A stretch of 64,000 nucleotides of DNA from positions 885,597-949,596 of the forward strand of contig NZ_DS989915.1 of assembly GCF_000155615.1 (NCBI RefSeq), given 5' to 3'. The translations under genes were made by a program, and so were the position numbers. A model generated the notes under the pieces. That model saw nothing but the letters and a program-made list of their open reading frames with translations. It was not told the DNA's origin and did not search any database. Numbering within the stretch: the first letter of the stretch is position 1; every line of letters starts with the position of its first letter. Below, in pieces: positions 300 to 16,321 of this stretch. Source of the DNA: Alcanivorax sp. DG881. Lineage in GTDB: Bacteria; Pseudomonadota; Gammaproteobacteria; Pseudomonadales; Alcanivoracaceae.

Positions 300-2447
300 A
301 TGATCTATCAAGGCAACGCCGTAAGCGTACAACTGCTTGACGACGGCATCGCCGAACTGAAGTTTGACCTTCAGGGCGAGTCCGTTAACAAGTTCAATCA
401 GGAAACCGTGGAAGACCTCGGTAAGGCTGTGGAAGCTGTTAAAGGTAACAGCGACATCAAAGGCCTGATCGTGACTTCCGGCAAAGGGGTTTTCATTGTT
501 GGCGCCGACATCACCGAATTCACAGACATGTTCAAGCTGCCGGAAGATGAAATCGCCGGCTGGTGTCTGAAATCCAACGAAGTCTTCAACGCTTTTGAAG
601 ATCTCGACATTCCCAAAGTGGCAGCCGTTAACGGCATCGCCCTGGGTGGCGGCCTGGAAATGTGCCTGGCTGCAGATTTCCGCGTGCTGAGCGAAAAAGC
701 CCAGGTAGGTCTGCCGGAAGTGAAGCTGGGCCTGTACCCGGGCTTCGGCGGCACCGTGCGTCTGCCCCGCCTGATCGGTGTGGACAACGCTGTTGAGTGG
801 ATCGCCGCTGCTGGCCAGCACAAGGCCGACAAAGCGCTGAAAGACGGCGTGGCTGACGCGGTCGTCGCTCACGACGAACTGCAAAACGCCGCCATCGATC
901 TGGTCAAGCAGTGCCTGGCCGGCAAGATCGACTTCCGCGCCAAGCGCGCCGAGAAACTCGAGCCGCTGAAACTGCCGCCCATGGAAAACATGATGGCCTT
1001 CCAGACCTGCACCGCCATGGTGATGGGTCAGGCTGGCAAGAACTACCCGGCACCGGTAGCGGCCGTGAACACCATGCAAAAGCACGGTGGCATGAACCGC
1101 GACAAAGCACTGGAAGTGGAAGCCAAAGGCTTCGCCAAAGTGGCCAAGTCCTCCCAGGCGACCTGCCTGGTCGGCCTGTTCCTGGCGGACCAGCAAGTGA
1201 AAAAGGTCAACGGCAAAACCGCCAAGGCCTCCAAAGAGATCAACCAGGCTGCGGTACTGGGCGCAGGCATCATGGGCGGCGGTATCGCCTTCCAGTCTGC
1301 CTCCAAAGGCACCCCGATCATCATGAAGGACATCGCCGACAAGGCGCTGGACCTGGGCATGAGCGAAGCCAGCAAACTGCTGACCAAGCGCGTTGATCGC
1401 AAGAAAATGAAGCCGGCCAAAATGGCCGAAGTGCTGTCCTCCATCCGCCCGACCCTGAACTACGGCGACTTCGCCAACGTGAACGTGGTTGTTGAAGCGG
1501 TTGTCGAGAACCAGAAGGTCAAGCAGTCCGTACTGGCGGAAGTGGAAGGCGAAGTGACCGAGGGCACCGTGCTGGCCTCCAACACCTCCACCATTTCCAT
1601 CACCAAACTGGCTGACGCCCTGAAGCGTCCGGAAGACTTCGCCGGCATGCACTTCTTCAACCCGGTACACATGATGCCGCTGGTGGAAGTGATCCGTGGT
1701 GAAAAGACCTCCGATGAAACCGTTGGCACCCTGGTGGCCTACGCCCAGAAAATGGGCAAAACCCCCATCGTGGTTAACGACTGCCCCGGCTTCCTGGTGA
1801 ACCGTGTACTGTTCCCCTACTTCGGCGGCTTCGGCATGCTGATGCGCGACGGTGCCGATTTCCAGGCTGTCGACAAAGTGATGCAGAAGTTCGGCTGGCC
1901 CATGGGCCCGGCATACCTGATGGACGTAGTTGGCATCGACACCGGTGTTCACGCGGCCCAGGTCATGGCTGAAGGCTTCCCCGAGCGCATGCAGTACGAC
2001 TTCAAAGATGTGTCTACCGTCATGTTCGAAAACGAGCGTTACGGCCAGAAGAACGGCATCGGCTTCTACAAGTACGAGCTGGACAAGAAAGGCAAAACCA
2101 AGAAGGTTGTCGACGAGTCCACCTACGAACTGATCAAGCCGCACGTTGCGGACACCCAGGAATTCGATGCGGACGAAATCATTGCCCGCATGATGATCCC
2201 CATGTGCACCGAAACCGTTCGCTGCCTGGAAGACAACATCGTAGGTTCCGCTGCCGAGGCCGACATGGCCATGATCTACGGCATCGGCTTCCCTCCCTTC
2301 CGTGGCGGTCCGCTGCGTTACATCGACAGTGTTGGCGTTAAAGAATTCGTCGCGCTGTGTGACAAGTACGCGCACCTGGGTGGCATCTACGAAGCACCAC
2401 AGATGCTCAAAGACATGGCCGCCAAGGGCGAGTCTTTCTTCGCCTAA
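300..2447 (+). CDS. fadB: Fatty acid oxidation complex subunit alpha FadB
   Basis: Multifunctional beta-oxidation enzyme of 715 aa, close to the usual 715-730. The N-terminal third is an enoyl-CoA hydratase/isomerase (crotonase) domain with the oxyanion-loop signature [16 protein letters not shown] near residues 104-119 and GLYPGFGG near 144-151. A 3-hydroxyacyl-CoA dehydrogenase follows, with the NAD-binding motif [12 protein letters not shown] near 319-330 and the catalytic segment [15 protein letters not shown] near 447-461. It acts in the cytoplasm as a heterotetramer with FadA. The ATG at 300 follows a GGAG-type ribosome site. fadA starts 24 bp after its stop, so the two are one operon. 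Expected to serve growth on fatty acids and alkanes. Confidence 0.98.
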
Positions 2448-3647
<1,200 letters not shown>

Positions 3648-3740
3648 TAAACGCCTGATGCCCAAAGCCTGACGCCGGATGCAATTCGGCGCTCAGGCCC
3701 GGCAACGCATTTCCGGCCCGCCTCACAAGGGCAGGACTGG

Positions 3741-3779
3741 AAACAAAAAACCCCGGCTTACCCGCCGGGGTTTTTCTTT
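3741..3779 (+). terminator. Intrinsic terminator after fadA
   Basis: A CCCCGGC/GCCGGGG-type stem (about 3751-3770) is followed by a T-rich run and preceded by an A-rich run, so it may work in both directions between fadA and the convergent toxin gene. Its 3' half (3755-3779) recurs exactly at 4600-4624. Confidence 0.85.
3755..3779 (+). repeat. 25-bp direct repeat, left copy
   Basis: Identical over 25 bp to 4600-4624. The two copies bracket the toxin-antitoxin pair. This copy is part of the intact fadA terminator. Confidence 0.85.
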
Positions 3780-3786
3780 GTTGGGC

Positions 3787-4071
3787 CTACAAATTTTCAT
3801 CAATGTCTTGGCGCCCAAGCACCCGCATGATTTCGACCACACTGCCATTGACTCGATAGTAAATACTATCCACTCCACAGACACTACGACGATAACCTTC
3901 CTGAATATACTCAACCGAAGGGTAGAGACGAGGTGCTTGTGCGATACGCTCAAAACGCTGAATCAGAGCCTCAAAATACCGAACCGCCTGCTCTTCACCA
4001 AATATCTCAACACCGCGCCAGTAAATTCGAGCCACATCCCTTTTGGCCGCATTACTGAGTTTATACGTCAT
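3787..4071 (-). CDS. RelE/ParE-family toxin
   Basis: Small basic protein of 94 aa with the RelE/ParE pattern: N-terminal LSNAAKRDVARIYWRG, the central helix AVRYFEALIQRFERIA, and the C-terminal strands YRRSVCGVDSIYYRV and VEIMRVLGRQD. Family members are mRNA interferases (RelE) or gyrase poisons (ParE); length and the C-terminal R-V-L-x-x-x-x-D pattern favour ParE, but the target cannot be read from sequence. Its start overlaps the end of the antitoxin gene by 11 bp, typical translational coupling. It sits between direct repeats, suggesting insertion downstream of fadA. Confidence 0.85.
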   Translation of the reverse strand: MTYKLSNAAKRDVARIYWRGVEIFGEEQAVRYFEALIQRFERIAQAPRLYPSVEYIQEGYRRSVCGVDSIYYRVNGSVVEIMRVLGRQDIDENL

Positions 4072-8064: not shown

Positions 8065-8110
8065 GAATTTCTCGAGTTTAAGCTCAGAGGCATTGGGCAT
8101 TTGAGGCATT

Positions 8111-8146
8111 GGGGTCAGGTCTTGTAGCGTGCGTTAAAACACTATG
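8111..8146 (+). repeat. Bracketing motif copy B
   Basis: Begins GGGGTCAGGTCTTG, then a variable part with GTGCG and a short GTGC/GCAC hairpin. It lies 46 bp upstream of the start of the minus-strand gene ending at 8064 and also marks the left side of the IS110/IS3 block. Close relatives are at 12379 and 13408. Confidence 0.65.
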
Positions 8147-8352
8147 CACGATGAAAGACCTCGTATCTTGAAGATGCCGAGATAAAACAGGATGGTAACC
8201 CTGATGAATCGGCCGGGCCGACTGAGACTGGCAAGACTTTAGGCAATTAGCCTGTGGGTCAGATAAGTCCGTCGGTCCGTTGTCTCTTTCATCTATTTCG
8301 AAGGGTAACTTAGGCCGGGCAGCATGCCCAGAGCCTGGATACGAGGAAGATC
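8147..8352 (+). ncRNA. IS110 5' noncoding end, candidate bridge RNA
   Basis: Noncoding stretch of about 200 bp directly before the first codons of the IS110-family transposase gene. IS110-group elements encode a structured bridge RNA in the noncoding end upstream of the recombinase; location and length fit. Short self-complementary pieces are visible (GGCCGGGC near 8210, GCCGGGC near 8313 with GCATGCCC). I cannot assign loops that recognise donor or target, so this rests mainly on position. Confidence 0.35.
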
Positions 8353-8364: not shown

Positions 8365-8378
8365 TGTCCACTCCCCCT

Positions 8379-9224
8379 TTAGTGAGGCAGTCCTAAACTA
8401 GAGTTTTCTACTTTCTGGCGATACACCGCTGGCGGTATGTCACCCAAGCTTTCATGCGGACGCTCGTCGTTGTAATCCAGCATCCACAGCCAGGCCATTT
8501 CCCGAACCTGGCCCAGACTCTCGAACAGATAGGCGTCCAGGAACTCATAACGGAACGACCCGTTAAATCGCTCGACGAAGCCGTTCTGTTGCGGTTTGCC
8601 AGGCTGGATGTAGGCGACCTCAATGCCTTTCTCTTCACACCAGTCATAGAACTCCGCTGCGATCAGCTCTGGCCCGTTATCCACCCTGATCTGGTTTGGC
8701 AGCCCACGCTCTTGCTCAAGGCGCTCCAGCGTCCGCACTACACGTCCTGCCGGGAGGCTGGCATCCACTTCGATGGCGAGACACTCGCGAGTGCCCTCAT
8801 CGATGATATTCAGCGTACGGAAGCGCTTGCCGCAATAAAGCGTGTCGTGCATAAAATCCAATGCCCACTGCTTGTTCGGATACATGCTGACCTCCAGCGG
8901 TTTGGCGATACGCTTGGGCAATACTCGCTTCGTGCGCCTGCGCAAATTCAGGCCCATCTGGCAATATACGCGGTAGACACGCTTGTGGTTGAAAGGCAGG
9001 CCTTTGTTCCTAATGCGCTTGTAGCACTTCCAGAAGCCTGCCCTCGGTGACTTCTTGAGTTGCTCGTTCAGCGCATCAATGACAGCAGCATCCGCTACAC
9101 GCCAGTCCCGGGGCTTGCGGTAGTAGCTCGCCCGCCCCAGACCGACCAGCTTACAGGCGTGAGTGATCGATAATCCAAATTCGACCAGAGTCGTTGCCGA
9201 CTCGCGTCTCTCCGCTGTCACCAA
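8379..9224 (-). CDS. IS3-family transposase OrfB (rve integrase domain)
   Basis: 281-aa catalytic part of the IS3 transposase. An N-terminal HTH_21-like segment (HACKLVGLGRASYYRKPR) precedes the DDE integrase core: first Asp in NKQWALDFMHDTL, second in NQIRVDNGPELIA, Glu in QQNGFVERFNGSFR. It is probably made as an OrfAB fusion by -1 frameshifting on the A7G stretch at 9228-9234, where the two frames overlap (9218-9224); a GTG start could also give free OrfB. All catalytic residues are present. Confidence 0.93.
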   Translation of the reverse strand: MVTAERRESATTLVEFGLSITHACKLVGLGRASYYRKPRDWRVADAAVIDALNEQLKKSPRAGFWKCYKRIRNKGLPFNHKRVYRVYCQMGLNLRRRTKRVLPKRIAKPLEVSMYPNKQWALDFMHDTLYCGKRFRTLNIIDEGTRECLAIEVDASLPAGRVVRTLERLEQERGLPNQIRVDNGPELIAAEFYDWCEEKGIEVAYIQPGKPQQNGFVERFNGSFRYEFLDAYLFESLGQVREMAWLWMLDYNDERPHESLGDIPPAVYRQKVENSSLGLPH

Positions 9225-9487
9225 CCCTTTTTTTCGAATAGATCCTTCAGGGCAGCATTTTCCAGGCTCAGATCAGCAAACATCTGCTTGAGTTTGGCAT
9301 TCTCGTCCTGAAGCTCCTTGAGCTTCTTCACATCCGACGCTTCCATGCCACCGTACTTGCTCTTCCAGTTGTAATAGGTGGCATTGCTGATGCCATGCTT
9401 TCGGCAGATCTCCTCGACTTTCATGCCCGCATCGACCTCTTTGAGGATTGATACGATCTGAGTTTCAGTAAACCGTGATTTCTTCAT
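9218..9487 (-). CDS. IS3-family transposase OrfA (HTH)
   Basis: 89-aa DNA-binding part of the transposase: helix-turn-helix RFTETQIVSILKEVDAGMK ... ICRKHGISNATYYNWKSKY and a C-terminal leucine-zipper-like helix (LKELQDENAKLKQMFADLSL). The ATG at 9487 has an AGGAGA ribosome site. The last codons run through A AAA AAG, the expected -1 slippery site into OrfB. Confidence 0.93.
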   Translation of the reverse strand: MKKSRFTETQIVSILKEVDAGMKVEEICRKHGISNATYYNWKSKYGGMEASDVKKLKELQDENAKLKQMFADLSLENAALKDLFEKKGW

Positions 9488-9558
9488 AGTCGTCTCCTGA
9501 GATGTGATATTCCCAGAAAACTCTAATCAGGTCTGTCTCAGTTTAGGGGGAGTGGACA

Positions 9559-9562: not shown

Positions 9563-10551
9563 CATGCCGTTGGTATCGACGTGTCCAAGAAGAAACTCGA
9601 TATCTGCGTTGTCTCTGCCAACAAGACCAAAACCAAAGTTCTTAAGAACACGCCAGCAGGTCATGGTGAATTGGAGAGATGGTTAAGACAGCGCGACCTG
9701 CCAAAAACAACGCCTGTTGTTCTTGAGGCTACAGGCCCTTACAGCGAAAGAGTCGCGACAATGCTCGCTGATGCTGGCTGGGCAATAAGTGTCGTAAACC
9801 CAGTTCGCATAACGGGTTTCGCCCAAAGTGAATTAAGCCGAAACAAGACAGACAAAGCGGATGCCAAACTCATTGCCCGTTTTGCACAGAAAGCAGAACT
9901 TCAACTCTGGCAACCCCCGAGCCTGGCTGTGCGAGAACTACGCGCCTTGGTTGACCGACTACAAGCTTTGATAGATATGCGTCAGCAGGAGCTGAACAGG
10001 CTTGAGGCCATTGATCAGGGATCGGTAATCAGCGTTGGGGATATGGTTAGAGAGCATATTGATTGGCTGAATAGCGAAATCAAGAATGTACAATCTGAGA
10101 TTGATGACCATATTGATGGCAACCCCGAGCTGAAACATGACGCCGAGCTGATGGAGAGCATTCCTGGTATCGGTAAGCGAGCTTCCGCCCAGTTCTTGGC
10201 TTATATCGGAGATGTCAGACGCTTTAAAAGCGCAAAGGCCCTAGCCGCGTTTATCGGTGTCACACCTCGACAGAAACAGTCAGGCACTTCCCTGAATGGC
10301 CGGAGCAGCTTATCTAGGGCCGGACACACCGCTGCCAGAAAGGCGCTGTTCATGCCTGGCATGGTTGCCAAGCATCACAACCCCGTCATCATCGCCATGG
10401 CCCAACGCCTAGAACAACGTGGGCTGACCCCGAAAGCCATCGTAGGCGCGAGCATGCGAAAACTGGTGCACCTGATTTATGGTGTGTTGAAATCAGGCCA
10501 GCCCTTTAAGGCAGAAATACCAATGGCGGGGATTGAAGTTCAAGAGGGTAT

Positions 10552-10560
10552 CTGACCCCA
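10552..10560 (-). repeat. Bracketing motif copy C (inverted, partial)
   Basis: CTGACCCCA, the inverse of TGGGGTCAG in copy B. It lies between the end of the IS110 transposase gene and the 3' end of the deaminase gene (13 bp beyond its stop). It may be part of the IS110 right end rather than a true motif copy. Confidence 0.4.
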
Positions 10561-10572
10561 GCTTCACAAAAG

Positions 10573-12339
10573 CTAACTCTGACTTGCAAGATAAGCAAGC
10601 TCATCTTTATAAGCCATAAGTGGCTCATATAGCCTTTGATAGCCCGTACCAACAGCACCTTTAAATTGAGTAAGCGTTGGCCTGTGCTCCCCGTTAGCCA
10701 TGACGTGATCCCGTGAAATTCCAGGATAAGGGTCAATAAAAACGATTTCCTCTATTCCAAGCTGTAACGCTTTTTTAGAACAAAGCTCACAAGGACTCGC
10801 TGTAGAGAACAGTTTCCCCCCTCTAACAGAGGCCCCACCATACTTTGTTATCTGCAAAAAGGCATTTTCTTCAGCATGAAGGGACCTAGTGTGTACTTGA
10901 TTTTTATCCCCTCTCAAATCATTTTCTGTATCCTTAAAACAATATGAGAGAGGCCTTCCAGTCAAATCGGTAATATCATCCAAAAGAATTTTATTCTTTT
11001 TCTCAAGCTGCCCCCTGAAATCAACGTTGTTTCTCTCATAATCACTATACGCAACATGATCGAATTCCGTTAGAGCACCTTTCACGCTTCTCAATGCACA
11101 TGGAACTTGACTTGCAGGAACATCATTCCAACCAACAGCTCTTATTGAATAGTCATCACCAGTTACAACCGCGCCAACTTGTCTAGAGATACATCCCGAA
11201 TTCATTTTTGCAGTAAAAGCTATTTGCATCACCCTTTCGATTGATGTAGGAGAAACCAAGCCTGGGTGAAGCATAAGAGAGAAATACCATAGGAGCTGTG
11301 ATTTAAGAACATTTGTATTTGAAATCTCCCCCCTTGGGTTAAAAATATGAATATCTGAAAACTGAAGGCATTTTCTTACATCTGTAACAGTAATTTTCTC
11401 AGCCCAGTCATCTGGGCTATACAGCTCACTTCTCCTAAAAGCCTTACCCGACTCCGTCTCATCAAGCAAAGAAAGCTGATCCGGGTCAAATTTGTGAACC
11501 TGATGAAGATACCTTGTTCTTGCGTCATCTGGAGCATTAATAGAAATCAGGTAGAATGCAGAATATCTATCCTTAAAAAACCGTGCCTCGTAGGGATTTC
11601 TGATAGCATCAATAACCACATAACATGGATCTCTGAGCTCTCTCAAGCACTTAATTACTCGATTAATTGTAATAGGCAACGTAAATATTGCATGCTTATT
11701 AAATGGTTGAGCCTTGTAATCTAGGTCGATATCACCCACTCGCCTCAATGAGTTGCCTGCACTCTGATACGCCGCAACGTAAAGCCCCTCGTCAATTTTT
11801 GTCAACGCCGCCTTTAGATCTCTCGTAAACCTTCTAACATTAACCAAAAGTCGCAAGAACGATTTATCAGTAAACCCAGACACATCAACATCACCATCAT
11901 GATCCAGAAGCATCGATATATCTTTAGCATACTTATTAACCAAGTCATTCCTTAACTCAACAACACTGCTTACAGCACTGGAGATCTCGCTCTTATTAAT
12001 TTTCTCTTTATTTCTATGCTTAAATATGAAATCAACAACTTTATCTTTATCCTTTCTCATAAAATATGCGGATATAAGATCTGAAATTTTTATCGATATG
12101 AATCCGCTCCAGTTTTCCTCAGCGTAGTTCCTTAGTATCTCATACCTTCTACGATTCAAACCCTTATAGAAATCAACTCCGCTCTGTACAACATCAGTAA
12201 GATTAGGAAAAAACTGATCAGAACGCCTTTTTTCTAGTATTGAGGCAGCAGTAGTGCAACCCGACCCTGTACGCCCGGTCAGACCAACCACAATAAATTT
12301 TTTTCTTTCAAGAAATATCTCATCTAGTGTACTAGCCAT
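10573..12339 (-). CDS. Anti-phage dCTP/dCMP deaminase, AvcD-like
   Basis: 588-aa two-domain protein from the ATG at 12339. The N-terminus carries a P-loop, GRTGSGCT at about residues 22-29, in an NMP-kinase-like domain. The C-terminus is a zinc-dependent deoxycytidylate deaminase with HAEEN at about 488 and PCELC at about 516-520, preceded by ISRQVGAVV. This order is that of the AvcD/dCTP deaminase defence proteins, which drain dCTP during phage infection. The frame stays open to 12417, but that extension merely translates motif copy D, so I reject it. The region is AT-rich compared with neighbours. In Vibrio the enzyme is held off by an upstream RNA (AvcI); here only about 120 bp separate it from the next gene. 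Confidence 0.85.
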   Translation of the reverse strand: MASTLDEIFLERKKFIVVGLTGRTGSGCTTAASILEKRRSDQFFPNLTDVVQSGVDFYKGLNRRRYEILRNYAEENWSGFISIKISDLISAYFMRKDKDKVVDFIFKHRNKEKINKSEISSAVSSVVELRNDLVNKYAKDISMLLDHDGDVDVSGFTDKSFLRLLVNVRRFTRDLKAALTKIDEGLYVAAYQSAGNSLRRVGDIDLDYKAQPFNKHAIFTLPITINRVIKCLRELRDPCYVVIDAIRNPYEARFFKDRYSAFYLISINAPDDARTRYLHQVHKFDPDQLSLLDETESGKAFRRSELYSPDDWAEKITVTDVRKCLQFSDIHIFNPRGEISNTNVLKSQLLWYFSLMLHPGLVSPTSIERVMQIAFTAKMNSGCISRQVGAVVTGDDYSIRAVGWNDVPASQVPCALRSVKGALTEFDHVAYSDYERNNVDFRGQLEKKNKILLDDITDLTGRPLSYCFKDTENDLRGDKNQVHTRSLHAEENAFLQITKYGGASVRGGKLFSTASPCELCSKKALQLGIEEIVFIDPYPGISRDHVMANGEHRPTLTQFKGAVGTGYQRLYEPLMAYKDELAYLASQS

Positions 12340-12378
12340 TATTCTCACTTTTTCCAAATCATATAATTCTTGGGAACC

Positions 12379-12428
12379 GGGGTCAGGTCTTGCATTGTGC
12401 GCTAAGACAAGATTCAAACACTTAGCAC
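12379..12428 (+). repeat. Bracketing motif copy D with hairpin
   Basis: GGGGTCAGGTCTTG at 12379-12392, then GTGCGCTAAG at about 12397-12406 facing CTTAGCAC at about 12420-12427 in a stem-loop. It lies 39 bp upstream of the deaminase start and 35 bp beyond the 290-aa gene. Also a possible place for a regulatory RNA or leader of the deaminase. Confidence 0.6.
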
Positions 12429-12462
12429 CATGAAATAGCTTATCCCTGCTTCCCCGAAAAAT

Positions 12463-13335
12463 TCATTCAGCCCTTAACTTCTCCAACCTTTCTTTGAACA
12501 CATCCCGATATGGCTCTGGATATGGCTTCGTACTCATAAAACCCTTGTCACAAAGATCCAGCCATCGTGATAGGGCCGAAGCATATGAATATCCATCACG
12601 ATGATTTAAACCTTGCAGGTAAAGATCTGGCAGATACACCATGTCTTCCGCATCCCACCATTCACCTTTTACCTTCCAAGCACCTTCACCACACCAAGAC
12701 AAAAGCGTTTCTCCACCTTGTATCTCATCAAGAGAATCGCCATCTACATAGACGCCTTTTGTGTAAATCCCCTGCTTTGCCAAAATTGCCAAGCAGGCAG
12801 TCAAATCTGCTCTCGCCTTCCAGTAACAGAATGACCAATCATTACAAAGATAAAACCGGCTTATCTCATTATCACCAACAGCCCCTACCTTTTCCTGAAT
12901 AACCAAAAGAGCCTCATCTGGGTATTCACATTTTCTAGGCACCAAAAGAAACGCATAGAGAAATATATCTTTCCGGTCCCCCAAAAGGCTCAAAACAAAA
13001 TCTTTAAACACTGCTGGCCGCTTATAAAAGTTGTATGTTGGGTAAATCTTCCCTGAGGCACCATCCACCCAAGATCTATTTGCGTTAAACAATTCACATG
13101 CATCATCTAATGCTGATTCTGTCAGCTTCAGTGTTAACTGGTCCAAGCTCTGCATGTCCGAAATTGACAAATCATGACCAAAGAAACGTGGAATCTGATT
13201 TTTGTGTACACCATGACTCTCAAACAGATTAAGAAATCGCTCGGCGATTAGCTCTTCCTCTTCTGGCTGTTTCTTCCACCAACGAGAAACCCTGTCCCAG
13301 ATTGAAAGACCAGCTTCAATTTCTCCAAGTACCAT
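12463..13335 (-). CDS. Unrecognised protein next to the AvcD-like gene
   Basis: 290-aa protein of unknown family. Residues ~28-105 are helical, with IPRFFGHDLSISDM ... ACELFNANRSWVDG, reminiscent of an XRE-type helix-turn-helix in which a domain ends W-L/V-x-G; this is inference. The C-terminal two thirds have several Trp, Tyr and Cys residues (SRFYLCNDWSFCYWKARADL) with no motif I can name. ATG at 13335 follows an AAAGAG site. Same strand as the deaminase and 123 bp from its start, similarly AT-rich, with motif copies on both sides. It could be a partner or regulator of the deaminase, or merely a co-acquired gene. Confidence 0.7.
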   Translation of the reverse strand: MVLGEIEAGLSIWDRVSRWWKKQPEEEELIAERFLNLFESHGVHKNQIPRFFGHDLSISDMQSLDQLTLKLTESALDDACELFNANRSWVDGASGKIYPTYNFYKRPAVFKDFVLSLLGDRKDIFLYAFLLVPRKCEYPDEALLVIQEKVGAVGDNEISRFYLCNDWSFCYWKARADLTACLAILAKQGIYTKGVYVDGDSLDEIQGGETLLSWCGEGAWKVKGEWWDAEDMVYLPDLYLQGLNHRDGYSYASALSRWLDLCDKGFMSTKPYPEPYRDVFKERLEKLRAE

Positions 13336-13407
13336 CTCTTTTCCTTGGTCTCATGCGACTGTTCACCTTTTTATTTCACGCGATGCGCAGGTCACGTGAG
13401 GAACATT

Positions 13408-13440
13408 AGGGTCAGGTCTTGCCCCGTGCGCCTTAGACTC
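13408..13440 (+). repeat. Bracketing motif copy E
   Basis: AGGGTCAGGTCTTG at 13408-13421 followed by a variable part including GTGCGCC. It lies 72 bp upstream of the 290-aa gene and abuts the ancestral 3' end of the DUF2726 gene. Confidence 0.6.
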
Positions 13441-14211
13441 AACACTTCACCGCACCCCGACACTTCGGAAATGCACTACACCCCCAAAACTGCTGCCCTG
13501 CATTCTTCCCTGAGCGAGCTTTGCGCAGCACCATCACTCACCACACTGATGACAAGCACGCGCAACGGGTTGAGCAGCGACGTCCACACCAGAGGGAGCC
13601 TCTATCGGCTTAACTACTTGTCGCTCGATCTGCTTGTTTGCCCCTTCCTGCTCATTGGCCGTTACTTCAACGCTCTGCCCTTCAATCTGCTCGGATTTCT
13701 CTTGGGACGAATCGTACTGCACAGGAAAAAGCACAGCCTCAACCTGCTGACGAATATCTGCCACCCCATATCCCCTGGCCGCCCTGATTCTCAGCAGCGG
13801 CAACCCAGCCGATTCACAGGCTCGCTCCAGAAAGGCATCCCGCTTCTGCCGTTTGGCCGAACCATGGCTGGCATCATCCAGCTCAATGGCCAGTTTTACG
13901 GCGCAGTCGTGTGGGTCGCAGAGGAGGAAATCGACGTGTTTGGCGGAAATCTTGTTGAAGGCTTGTTGCCAGTTGGATCGGTTGAGGCCTTTCTGGGGAG
14001 CAAGCACGTCCGCCACGCGGACTTTGGAGAAGATGAGGGCCTTGTCGCCCACGGCTTGAGTGAGCACGCCGTAGAAAGAGCGTTCGGCTTTGGAAAGCAG
14101 ATAGGGTTTGCGGCGATAGCCGAAGGTAGACGCTCCGCCGCCGGCCCGTTTCTGTTGGGCCAGGATCAGGATGACGCCAATGGCGATAGCCAGTAGAACG
14201 CCTAATTCCAC
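13439..14211 (-). pseudogene. DUF2726 protein gene, frameshifted before zinc finger
   Basis: The intact frame 13534-14211 gives 225 aa: a membrane anchor at residues ~3-18 (LGVLLAIAIGVILILA), then a DUF2726 nuclease-like fold (LSKAERSFYGVLTQAV ... VDFLLCDPHDCAVKLAIELDD ... PLLRIRAARGY) and a stop right after CHQCGE. In the -1 frame the sequence continues MVLRKARSGKNAGQQFWGCS and FPKCRG to a stop at 13439, which is the rest of a topoisomerase-type C4 zinc finger. One missing base at about 13535 therefore removes the second half of the finger. Either a real lesion or a sequencing error; the truncated protein may still be made. Confidence 0.8.
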
Positions 14212-14477: not shown

Positions 14478-15326
14478 CTATGCTCGTGCCTTGATCTGCC
14501 AGCAGGCGGCGTTGAATTTCACGGTATCGCCGAACACACAGGGCTCGAAGGCTTCTCTGACCACGGTAATGAGACGGGCTTGTGTCTTTTCGTCCAGGTC
14601 GGGGAAAACGCGGCCGAGCGGGCCCAGGCGGGTGAAGTAGCCGACCAGCTCGCTCTCGGGGAAGGTGCATTCGAAATCCAGTGGTTCGATGCTGATGTGA
14701 TGCCAGTGCGCAGCTTCAAGAAGGCTTTCCACACGTTTGGCGTCTGCGAATGCGAACTGCCCGGGGGCGTCCGGGGCTTGTTGTGGCAGCGTGACGATGG
14801 ATTTGGCCGCCCGGGCGGCAGCGGTCATGAAGGGGGTTTCTTGCGGGGAGCGCCAGGCCACGAACAGCCCGGGGGCGTCTGTGGTAGCGGCACGCCTCAG
14901 GTTCTGGAAGGCCTTGATAGGATCGTCGAAGAACATGATGCCGAAGCGCGAGACCAGCATGTCGTACCGGCTTTCACCAAAATCATGGGTCTCTGCATCG
15001 GCACAGATAAACTCTACGCCCGCCTTTTCTGCGCCGTTCTTTTCCGTACCCTGCCGTGCCGCCTCGATCATGACCTCGGAAATATCGACGCCTGTTGCCT
15101 GCCCCTCACCCCGGGTATAACGGCTGATCGCGCGAGTTGTGCCGCCGGTACCGCAGCCGATATCGAGAACGCGCTGCGGCGACTGGCATTCCACCGCCTC
15201 AGCCAGCAAGCCCTCGATGGGTTTGAACAGGTGATCAATCAGCCGCTGGGATTCCACCCAATTGCGCCCACCCACGCTTTTCCACAGCGTTGACGGGTTG
15301 TCGGGTGTCTCTGTTGAACGGTTCAT
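14478..15326 (-). CDS. Class I SAM-dependent methyltransferase
   Basis: 282-aa protein with motif I VLDIGCGTGG at about residues 53-62, TGVDISEVMIEAAR (motif II region), and FICADAETHDFG before SRFGIMFFDD (post-motif I/IV). This is the Methyltransf_11/25 type; the substrate cannot be read. I use the ATG at 15326, which has GGAGAG five bases upstream; a GTG at 15332 is possible. A SoxR-like promoter lies upstream (15366-15396) and REP-like hairpins stand on both sides. Confidence 0.88.
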   Translation of the reverse strand: MNRSTETPDNPSTLWKSVGGRNWVESQRLIDHLFKPIEGLLAEAVECQSPQRVLDIGCGTGGTTRAISRYTRGEGQATGVDISEVMIEAARQGTEKNGAEKAGVEFICADAETHDFGESRYDMLVSRFGIMFFDDPIKAFQNLRRAATTDAPGLFVAWRSPQETPFMTAAARAAKSIVTLPQQAPDAPGQFAFADAKRVESLLEAAHWHHISIEPLDFECTFPESELVGYFTRLGPLGRVFPDLDEKTQARLITVVREAFEPCVFGDTVKFNAACWQIKARA

Positions 15327-15365
15327 GCTCACTCTCCGGGAGGCGCTGTCTTGATATTACCGGTT

Positions 15366-15572: not shown

Positions 15573-15992
15573 ATGGATTCTGTATCCATCAAAGACCTGA
15601 TGAGCACGCGTTTTGCGACGATTCACCCGGAGATGCCGGTGGTGGAAGCCTCCAGCAACCTGATCAAACTGGACATGCTGGGCAGCCCGGTCACCGATGA
15701 CGCCGGTACGCTGGTGGGCTGGATCAGTGAGCGCGAATGCCTGCAGGCGGCGCTGCAGGTGGTGTATCACAACCAGCGCGTGGCCACGGTTAAAGACTTG
15801 ATGCAAAGCGAGGTGCTCACGGTATCGCTCACCGATGACGTGCTTAGCCTGGCCCAGCAAATGCTGGCCGCCAAGCCCAAGATCTACCCGGTGGTGGATG
15901 CGGCCAACAAGGTGGTCGGCGTTATCAGCCGCCGCCACATCCTCAATATGCTGGACCAGAAGCTGGCCGAGCTGTGCCAAAAGGCGGGCTAG
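15573..15992 (+). CDS. CBS domain pair protein
   Basis: 139-aa protein made almost entirely of two CBS domains (about residues 5-60 and 66-130). The second ends VVDAANKVVGVISRRHIL, a typical adenosyl-binding segment; the first has PVTDDAGTLVGWISERECL. Stand-alone CBS pairs sense AMP, ATP or related ligands and regulate a partner that cannot be named here. AGAGGTAAG acts as ribosome site. Monocistronic. Confidence 0.9.
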   Translation: MDSVSIKDLMSTRFATIHPEMPVVEASSNLIKLDMLGSPVTDDAGTLVGWISERECLQAALQVVYHNQRVATVKDLMQSEVLTVSLTDDVLSLAQQMLAAKPKIYPVVDAANKVVGVISRRHILNMLDQKLAELCQKAG

Positions 15993-16321
15993 CCTGCCAC
16001 CTGGCGCAGCTCAACAGCCTGATTTGCGCACTTTTGGTGCCCAACATGCTCGCACCGGTGTGCCGCTGTGGTGCACAAGATGCGCCGCCCTGACCGTAAT
16101 GCGGCTCACTGAAGAGAAGCAGCGCTGTACCAGCGTCTTCACCATGCGAGCATGTTTTCCCACCAATCCCGAAGTCTGAGAGGGTTGAGGGAAGCGATGT
16201 TTACATCGCGAAGGCTTCACTGAACGGATGTTTTTGCCAGGCGTCCGGCAACGTGTGAGGGGTTCGCAATACGGCAAGCAAACGGCGGGAAGAGCATTGT
16301 TCCCTCTAATCCACGAAGAAC
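15993..16321. other. Intergenic region between convergent genes
   Basis: About 330 bp without a supported gene. Open frames exist on the minus strand (16011-16277) but have Arg/Cys/Ser-rich composition typical of chance frames. Confidence 0.35.

Follow-up and report, generated by a model that had tools for sequence, protein, structure and literature searches.

A probable long-form anti-phage dCTP deaminase encoded in a variable genomic island of Alcanivorax

What is an AT-rich gene beside two insertion elements doing in an Alcanivorax genome and, if it encodes a nucleotide-depleting defence enzyme, what keeps that enzyme inactive in healthy cells? The gene in question (P0001) occupies positions 10573-12339, on the minus strand, of a 64,000-nucleotide stretch of Alcanivorax sp. 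DG881, referred to here as the window. Its frame opens with ATG and runs for 588 codons without an internal stop, and its GC content of 39.9%, against 56.6% across the window, agrees with an earlier note on this DNA that had called it AT-rich; the upstream neighbor, P0002, has a GC content of 43.1%. The same note had recognized a P-loop domain and a zinc deaminase domain with HAE and PCELC motifs in one 588-aa protein, and this architecture is present. The N-terminal domain (residues 14-357; 11269-12300, minus strand) carries the P-loop GLTGRTGSGCTT at residues 19-30 (12250-12285, minus strand), with Cys28 at the Walker lysine position, and the deaminase domain (residues 363-566; 10642-11253, minus strand) carries HAE at residues 488-490 (10870-10878, minus strand) and PCELC at residues 516-520 (10780-10794, minus strand). 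In an alignment of 58 chosen sequences (A3; 57 loci plus the window protein, with near-duplicates and truncated, extended or viral-contig members left out), H488, E490, C517, and C520 occur in every row. Pfam matches the deaminase part to dCMP_cyt_deam_1 (3.6e-14) and the P-loop only to AAA_18, below threshold (0.0051).

The pairing of a P-loop domain with a zinc deaminase domain bearing HxE and PCxxC motifs is that of the anti-phage dCTP deaminases (Dcd, E. coli AW1.7 type). P0001 scores 401.4 bits on the NCBIfam model of this family, NF041025, across profile positions 1-437 of 437, and clears the curated cut-off of 400 by only 1.4 bits; the margin is thin, yet an ordinary dCMP deaminase is far off, since a control phage dCMP deaminase scores 95 bits. 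All 58 A3 rows match NF041025 at E ≤ 1e-10, which is an E-value match and not the 400-bit cut-off, and the PADLOC dCTPase model matches P0001 at 1.7e-132. An unrooted tree of the deaminase domain was built from 53 rows, comprising 30 of the 58 A3 long forms, 11 short forms (L012 and L015 being left out), and 12 of 21 extracted dCMP deaminases. The 30 long forms, P0001 included, lie on one side of a branch with support of 100/99, and the 11 short forms (AvcD) are separated with support of 99/97. Long forms and AvcD are parted from the 12 sampled dCMP deaminases at 87/96, the weakest figure in the tree because the long dCMP deaminase branches may join falsely and the tree is unrooted. Closer kinship to housekeeping dCMP deaminases, which the note had named as evidence against a defence role, was looked for, and P0001 fell outside all 12. 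On these comparisons, the anti-phage dCTP deaminase family consists of a short AvcD clade and a long-form clade, with P0001 in the latter. The label AvcD-like given to P0001 therefore stands for membership of the anti-phage deoxycytidine deaminase family (NF041025, PADLOC) but not for AvcD in the strict sense, to which the separate long-form clade and an identity of 25% to the AvcD of ETEC, over about two thirds of the protein, are opposed. That P0001 is a new long-form dCTP deaminase, and an ordinary defence gene, is a well-supported reading of its sequence.

Departures from the strict motif strings are found in 10 of 92 surveyed proteins, through a start called late (L047), in the P-loop (L049, L081), in PCELC (L078, L091, L092, L018), in HAEENA (L087, L101), or through an internal stop (L121). 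The Geminocystis long form among them (L018:3971-5854), which lies outside A3, has PWELC in place of PCELC and so has lost one zinc cysteine; its gene is divergent to one annotated as deoxyguanosinetriphosphate triphosphohydrolase. Some long forms are extended at the C terminus to 755-803 aa (L086, L089, L090, L100, L101), and Pfam names the extra part in L101 only (DUF1697).

Several known systems can be set beside P0001. E. coli AW1.7 encodes a long form (WP_045268677.1, in NZ_CP073624.1) that is 53% identical to P0001 over 99% of its length and has the same cysteine-bearing P-loop and zinc motifs. No neighbor of the AW1.7 gene is annotated as a partner; unlike P0001, it adjoins an integrase gene and lies about 1.8 kb from a tRNA-Phe gene, and its upstream DNA is not common to the window. 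The deaminase of this strain reportedly confers defence and depletes dCTP in the work of Tal et al., published in Nature Microbiology in 2022, and the protein they tested is presumably WP_045268677.1. At the DNA level AW1.7 is absent from the 57 genomes that match ETEC avcD, a comparison in which a more distant short form would be missed, and it is included among the 42 of 5,426 complete E. coli genomes that match the long-form gene L107 from a viral contig, 32 of them over at least 80%. AvcID of V. cholerae, V. parahaemolyticus, and ETEC H10407 likewise combines a P-loop and a zinc deaminase in one protein, and ETEC AvcD matches the same NCBI and PADLOC models as P0001; the ETEC system has been tested (PMC10511110). 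T4-type, bacterial, and human dCMP deaminases resemble the C-terminal domain in fold and zinc motifs but are single-domain proteins outside the clade (12 sampled). The human dCTP deaminase CDADC1 (9hfs, 9hfr) matches the deaminase part in fold (Foldseek 9.5e-4, Z 12.4), with 18% identity over 121 aligned residues; its second domain is not known to be of the P-loop kind.

A structure model built on the 58 A3 rows (mean pLDDT 90.2, pTM 0.91) gives the two domains distinct affinities. In the predicted model, residues 363-566 resemble the dCMP deaminase 5c2o_A (Z 16.9, rmsd 2.2, 143 aligned) and residues 14-357 an adenylate-kinase-related protein, 3lw7_A (Z 15.4, rmsd 2.0, 169 aligned); the unmatched remainder of the NMP-kinase-like N-terminal domain is a long, mostly helical insertion. 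C383, C414, and C467 are found in all 58 A3 rows and H483 in 56. T4 dCMP deaminase has a second zinc site, and by analogy these four residues may form one here. The P-loop is near-invariant in A3 (GLTGRTGSGC[TS]T), and D244, R247, and E251 are present in 58 of 58 rows. The Walker A lysine (GxxxxGK[ST]), the mark of an active NMP/dNMP kinase, is missing from P0001; its position is held by Cys in 56 of the 58 rows, by Ser in one, and by a gap in one. Lysine is likewise found at this column in none of the 11 short forms, six of which have a lysine one place on. Because the Walker lysine is replaced by Cys, the N-terminal domain would bind rather than phosphorylate a nucleotide, and the simplest reading of the model is that it is probably a nucleotide-binding, kinase-dead sensor, a shared fold in itself showing no function. 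Weak sequence matches join the N-terminal profile to dephospho-CoA kinase and AdkA-like proteins (E 0.0037-0.0074). Descent of this domain from phage dNMP kinases was considered and set aside, a viral scan around T4 gp1 having returned three near-copies only.

Relatives of P0001 are widespread but thinly scattered. A scan of species genomes returned at least 517 relatives among 592 candidate stretches, and the best 80 of these span seven named phyla (Pseudomonadota 49, Bacillota 14, Bacteroidota 10, Cyanobacteriota 2, Thermodesulfobacteriota 2, Campylobacterota 1, and Chlorobiota 1, with one lacking a phylum name). In an even sample of the class, five of 369 genomes match, namely the genome itself and four distant partial matches. 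Searches of plasmids with tblastn gave 43 records, seven of which cover at least 80% of the query at 37-52% identity (Pantoea, cyanobacteria, Aeromonas, and Lachnospira); 33 others among the matches listed show 25-28% identity over part of the query, and include AvcD of ETEC H10407 p58. None of 45 phage records covers 80% of P0001, and a nearly whole long-form gene is found in 23 of 79 viral-contig loci (L103-L125).

Control of the enzyme is where P0001 and AvcD may part. AvcI RNA binds AvcD, which it inhibits, and disappears once phage shut off host transcription (PMC10511110; PMC12409362), and a review generalizes this to a host dCTP deaminase guarded by a small RNA (PMC12409349). P0001 could, on this precedent, belong to an AvcID-type toxin-antitoxin pair, in which RNA made from the upstream gap, or from the end of P0002, inhibits the deaminase until transcription shutoff removes it. 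Membership of the same broad family (NF041025, PADLOC), the inhibition of AvcD by AvcI, and the review's extension of the guard to "the host dCTP deaminase" all favor such a pair; P0001 nevertheless lies in a different clade from AvcD, and what was found upstream makes this arrangement unlikely. The gap, put at about 120 bp by the earlier note, measures 123 nt (12340-12462, minus strand). No AvcI-like RNA was found in it; an Rfam scan of the window gave no AvcI match at gathering score, and the gap folds as RNA without excess structure (z -0.48, with 56 of 200 shuffles as stable). One promoter-like site was found upstream of P0001 against 0.8 expected, which is chance level. The only upstream DNA found in common between P0001 and its A. 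profundi counterpart is 57 nt of a genus-wide palindrome, and it lies 39-95 nt from the start in P0001 but 169-225 nt from it in A. profundi. By crude ORF calling, 77 long-form loci have a gene upstream, and in 15 of them a gene on the same strand lies no more than 90 nt away.

Across long forms, blastn and alignments reveal upstream similarity in pairs or small groups only, and the shared blocks include what we read from their sequences as an integron-like attC (Vibrio), the end of an integrase gene, and prophage attachment regions. Counting against a stand-alone enzyme, three of the Enterobacterales long forms have some 220 nt of upstream DNA in common (72-96%), a closer likeness than that of their downstream DNA. 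In this group the upstream DNA diverges faster than the gene and slower than the downstream DNA (for L025 and L026, 89.5% identity in the gene, 78.2 and 70.9% upstream, and 44.4% downstream), and six aligned Enterobacterales sequences retain a promoter-like block close to the start. A total of 34 short ATG frames (35-90 codons) were found in 93 long-form upstream stretches, and not one has W as its last residue. In four of 11 short-form loci (L219, L220, L221, L223), by contrast, a frame of 56-61 codons lies up to 320 nt before avcD, at the place expected of AvcI, and its peptide terminates in (I/L)xW; the ETEC short form has a 61-codon upstream frame without this ending. In those four loci, the AvcI transcript may encode a conserved peptide. 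Short-form AvcD control loci, on the other hand, also lack upstream conservation detectable by blastn, and the missing AvcI-like RNA is therefore weak evidence. Taken together, the upstream tests on long forms argue weakly, and with little power, against an AvcI-like RNA. The suggestion that control must differ or be compact gains from them to the extent that no AvcI is evident by Rfam, folding, or upstream comparison, in a test that is equally blank for the short-form controls.

The genomic setting bears on how P0001 came to be there. It lies in an island bordered by fadB/fadA-like genes (1197-3644, plus strand) and a CBS-domain-like gene (15573-15992, plus strand), both named by eye. Between the window and A. 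profundi, DNA identity is 88.6% across the fadBA-like stretch (window 1143-3787) and 83% across the CBS-like gene (15573-15996), against 69% for the deaminase gene (L023 in A. profundi; protein identity 73%), and this difference suggests either exchange or faster evolution of the deaminase gene. Of the genus's 17 genomes, 14 contain a close CBS gene (85-100% identity). Both borders fall within the stretch examined in seven of these 14, at distances of 4,611, 5,791, 6,377, 10,764, 11,525, 11,929, and 15,135 bases; three others have no fadA within about 19 kb, and in four the contig or stretch ended first. The seven intervals hold 49 frames of at least 150 codons, of which 10, from the genomes G008, G014 (apparently A. 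profundi), G015, and G016, were scanned against PADLOC, as were further frames of both the window and G014; the scan did not extend to G001 and G011. The matches comprise a full PD-Lambda-4_A protein in G016 (E 0), and a NERD-UvrD protein in G008 that is 95% identical in G014. G015 has a DNA cytosine methylase (1.5e-108) together with a PD-Lambda-5_A-like protein of weaker score (2.9e-15), and G008 also gives a weak match to ApeA (3.5e-6); four of the 10 frames have no match or only the weak ApeA match. With other defence homologs lying in the interval in three sister species, there is a fair case, on sequence comparison, for regarding the fadBA-CBS interval as an Alcanivorax defence hotspot, a descriptive and not a statistical statement, because PADLOC also includes candidate systems and fadBA-CBS intervals alone were considered. 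The deaminase gene is patchily distributed, occurring in two of the genus's 17 genomes, and its island is variable, which supports the horizontal acquisition proposed in the earlier note.

Other genes of the island are less readily named. P0002 (290 aa; 12463-13335, minus strand), AT-rich like P0001, has no family match in Pfam, NCBIfam, or PADLOC scans, and has two plasmid relatives, both weak, of which one carries the annotation TraE. P0003 (13534-14211, minus strand) is a DUF2726 protein by Pfam. Beside the CBS-like gene, a 284-aa protein (14478-15332) has a match to PADLOC mad2 confined to residues 1-166 (4e-22), and could be an ordinary methyltransferase.

The gene might also be a decayed remnant whose expression was lost once IS elements had inserted downstream and the palindrome upstream. 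An IS110-family transposase ORF (9581-10555, plus strand) has its 5' end interrupted by an IS3-family element (8365-9558, minus strand) that has 30-nt inverted ends, 83% complementary, and TGAG at both ends. Two insertion elements do adjoin P0001, but the description IS-flanked does not hold, as both are on its 3' side and P0002 is on the 5' side. Their presence, and an upstream promoter-like site no better than chance, would suit decay; the intact 588-codon frame, the retained catalytic motifs, and the position of both elements 3' of the gene speak against it, and we consider a decayed gene improbable. That P0001 is a housekeeping dCMP deaminase feeding thymidylate synthesis is very improbable. 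Its deaminase domain is closest in fold to dCMP deaminases, but P0001 stands outside the 12 dCMP deaminase rows with an extra domain of about 360 residues, and the gene is confined to two of 17 genomes, in a variable AT-rich island.

The palindrome in the gap is itself of some interest. A copy of the genus-wide GGGTCAGGTCTTGCAYYGTGC palindrome with a degraded right arm lies at 12375-12445, a GGGGTCAG half-motif marks the 3' boundary of the deaminase gene and the end of the IS110 ORF (10552-10573), and further copies lie upstream of P0006 (8111-8148) and between P0002 and the DUF2726 gene (13404-13430). The form GGGGTCAGGTCTTGCAYYGTGC...GCACGATGCAAGACCTGACCCC recurs at 8111, 12379, and 13408 in the window and in L005, L010, L187, L190, L207, and others; GGGTCAG repeats stand at three gene boundaries in the island. 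Sister versions (GGGTCAGGTCTCCCATTTCCCA) adjoin Y1-transposase genes. Of the five Y1 (RAYT-like) matches in this genome, three adjoin GGGTCAG repeats, and two of those three are neighbors. The 14-base core, with one mismatch allowed, has nine sites in this genome against one for a reversed control, and 16 of the genus's 17 genomes contain a 21-base form, with two mismatches, against none for the control. By sequence, the palindrome looks like a REP/RAYT-type family; the accessible part of a paper on REP sequences (PMC2817692) mentions neither Alcanivorax nor GGGTC at the start of a word, and nothing on the GGGTCAG repeat was found in the literature among the matches listed. Its use as a cassette boundary was not upheld, and is kept as a lead, since only one of three window copies folded as DNA beats shuffles (8105-8170, z -2.83; 12375-12445, z 0.09; 13400-13475, z -0.57) and the copy at the deaminase is degraded.

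A partner gene was also sought, and none was detected among 135 neighbor proteins of 83 long-form loci, as called by a crude ORF caller. The largest group of homologs among them has seven members, all others having two. This single NrdB-like cluster comes from Pseudomonas only, and a ribonucleotide-reductase partner was rejected on that basis. In seven of 14 Pseudomonas loci among the best 80 (L030, L060, L063, L065, L069, L073, L099), the deaminase lies at the 3' end of the nrdB-like gene, which is probably an insertion hotspot rather than a partner. Other Pfam families turn up less often among the 135 neighbors, with TIR_2 (4), Mrr_cat (3), and Methylase_S (3) in the first 25 of 127 families.

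P0001 is thus likely to be a stand-alone anti-phage deoxycytidine-nucleotide deaminase of the long-form clade, exchanged through an Alcanivorax defence hotspot. The protein would be made yet idle in healthy cells, its NMP-kinase-like domain, with Cys for the Walker lysine, acting as a nucleotide-binding sensor and not as a kinase. When a phage halts host transcription or alters nucleotide pools, the deaminase would switch on and convert dCTP or dCMP to dUTP or dUMP, and the depletion of deoxycytidine nucleotides would starve phage DNA synthesis. A bolder possibility, which we consider less likely than not, is that the long form is an antitoxin-free sensor-effector whose kinase-dead domain, with its near-invariant Cys, reads the nucleotide state of the infected cell and gates the deaminase directly, without the RNA that guards AvcD.

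How the enzyme is kept inactive without a detected antitoxin RNA is the main interest of the long form. For Alcanivorax, the fadBA-CBS interval is a practical place for finding defence genes. For the family, one name, anti-phage dCTP deaminase, covers two deep clades between which control may differ; RNA control by AvcI is documented for the short clade, and the long clade would allow direct nucleotide sensing by a P-loop without lysine to be tested cleanly.
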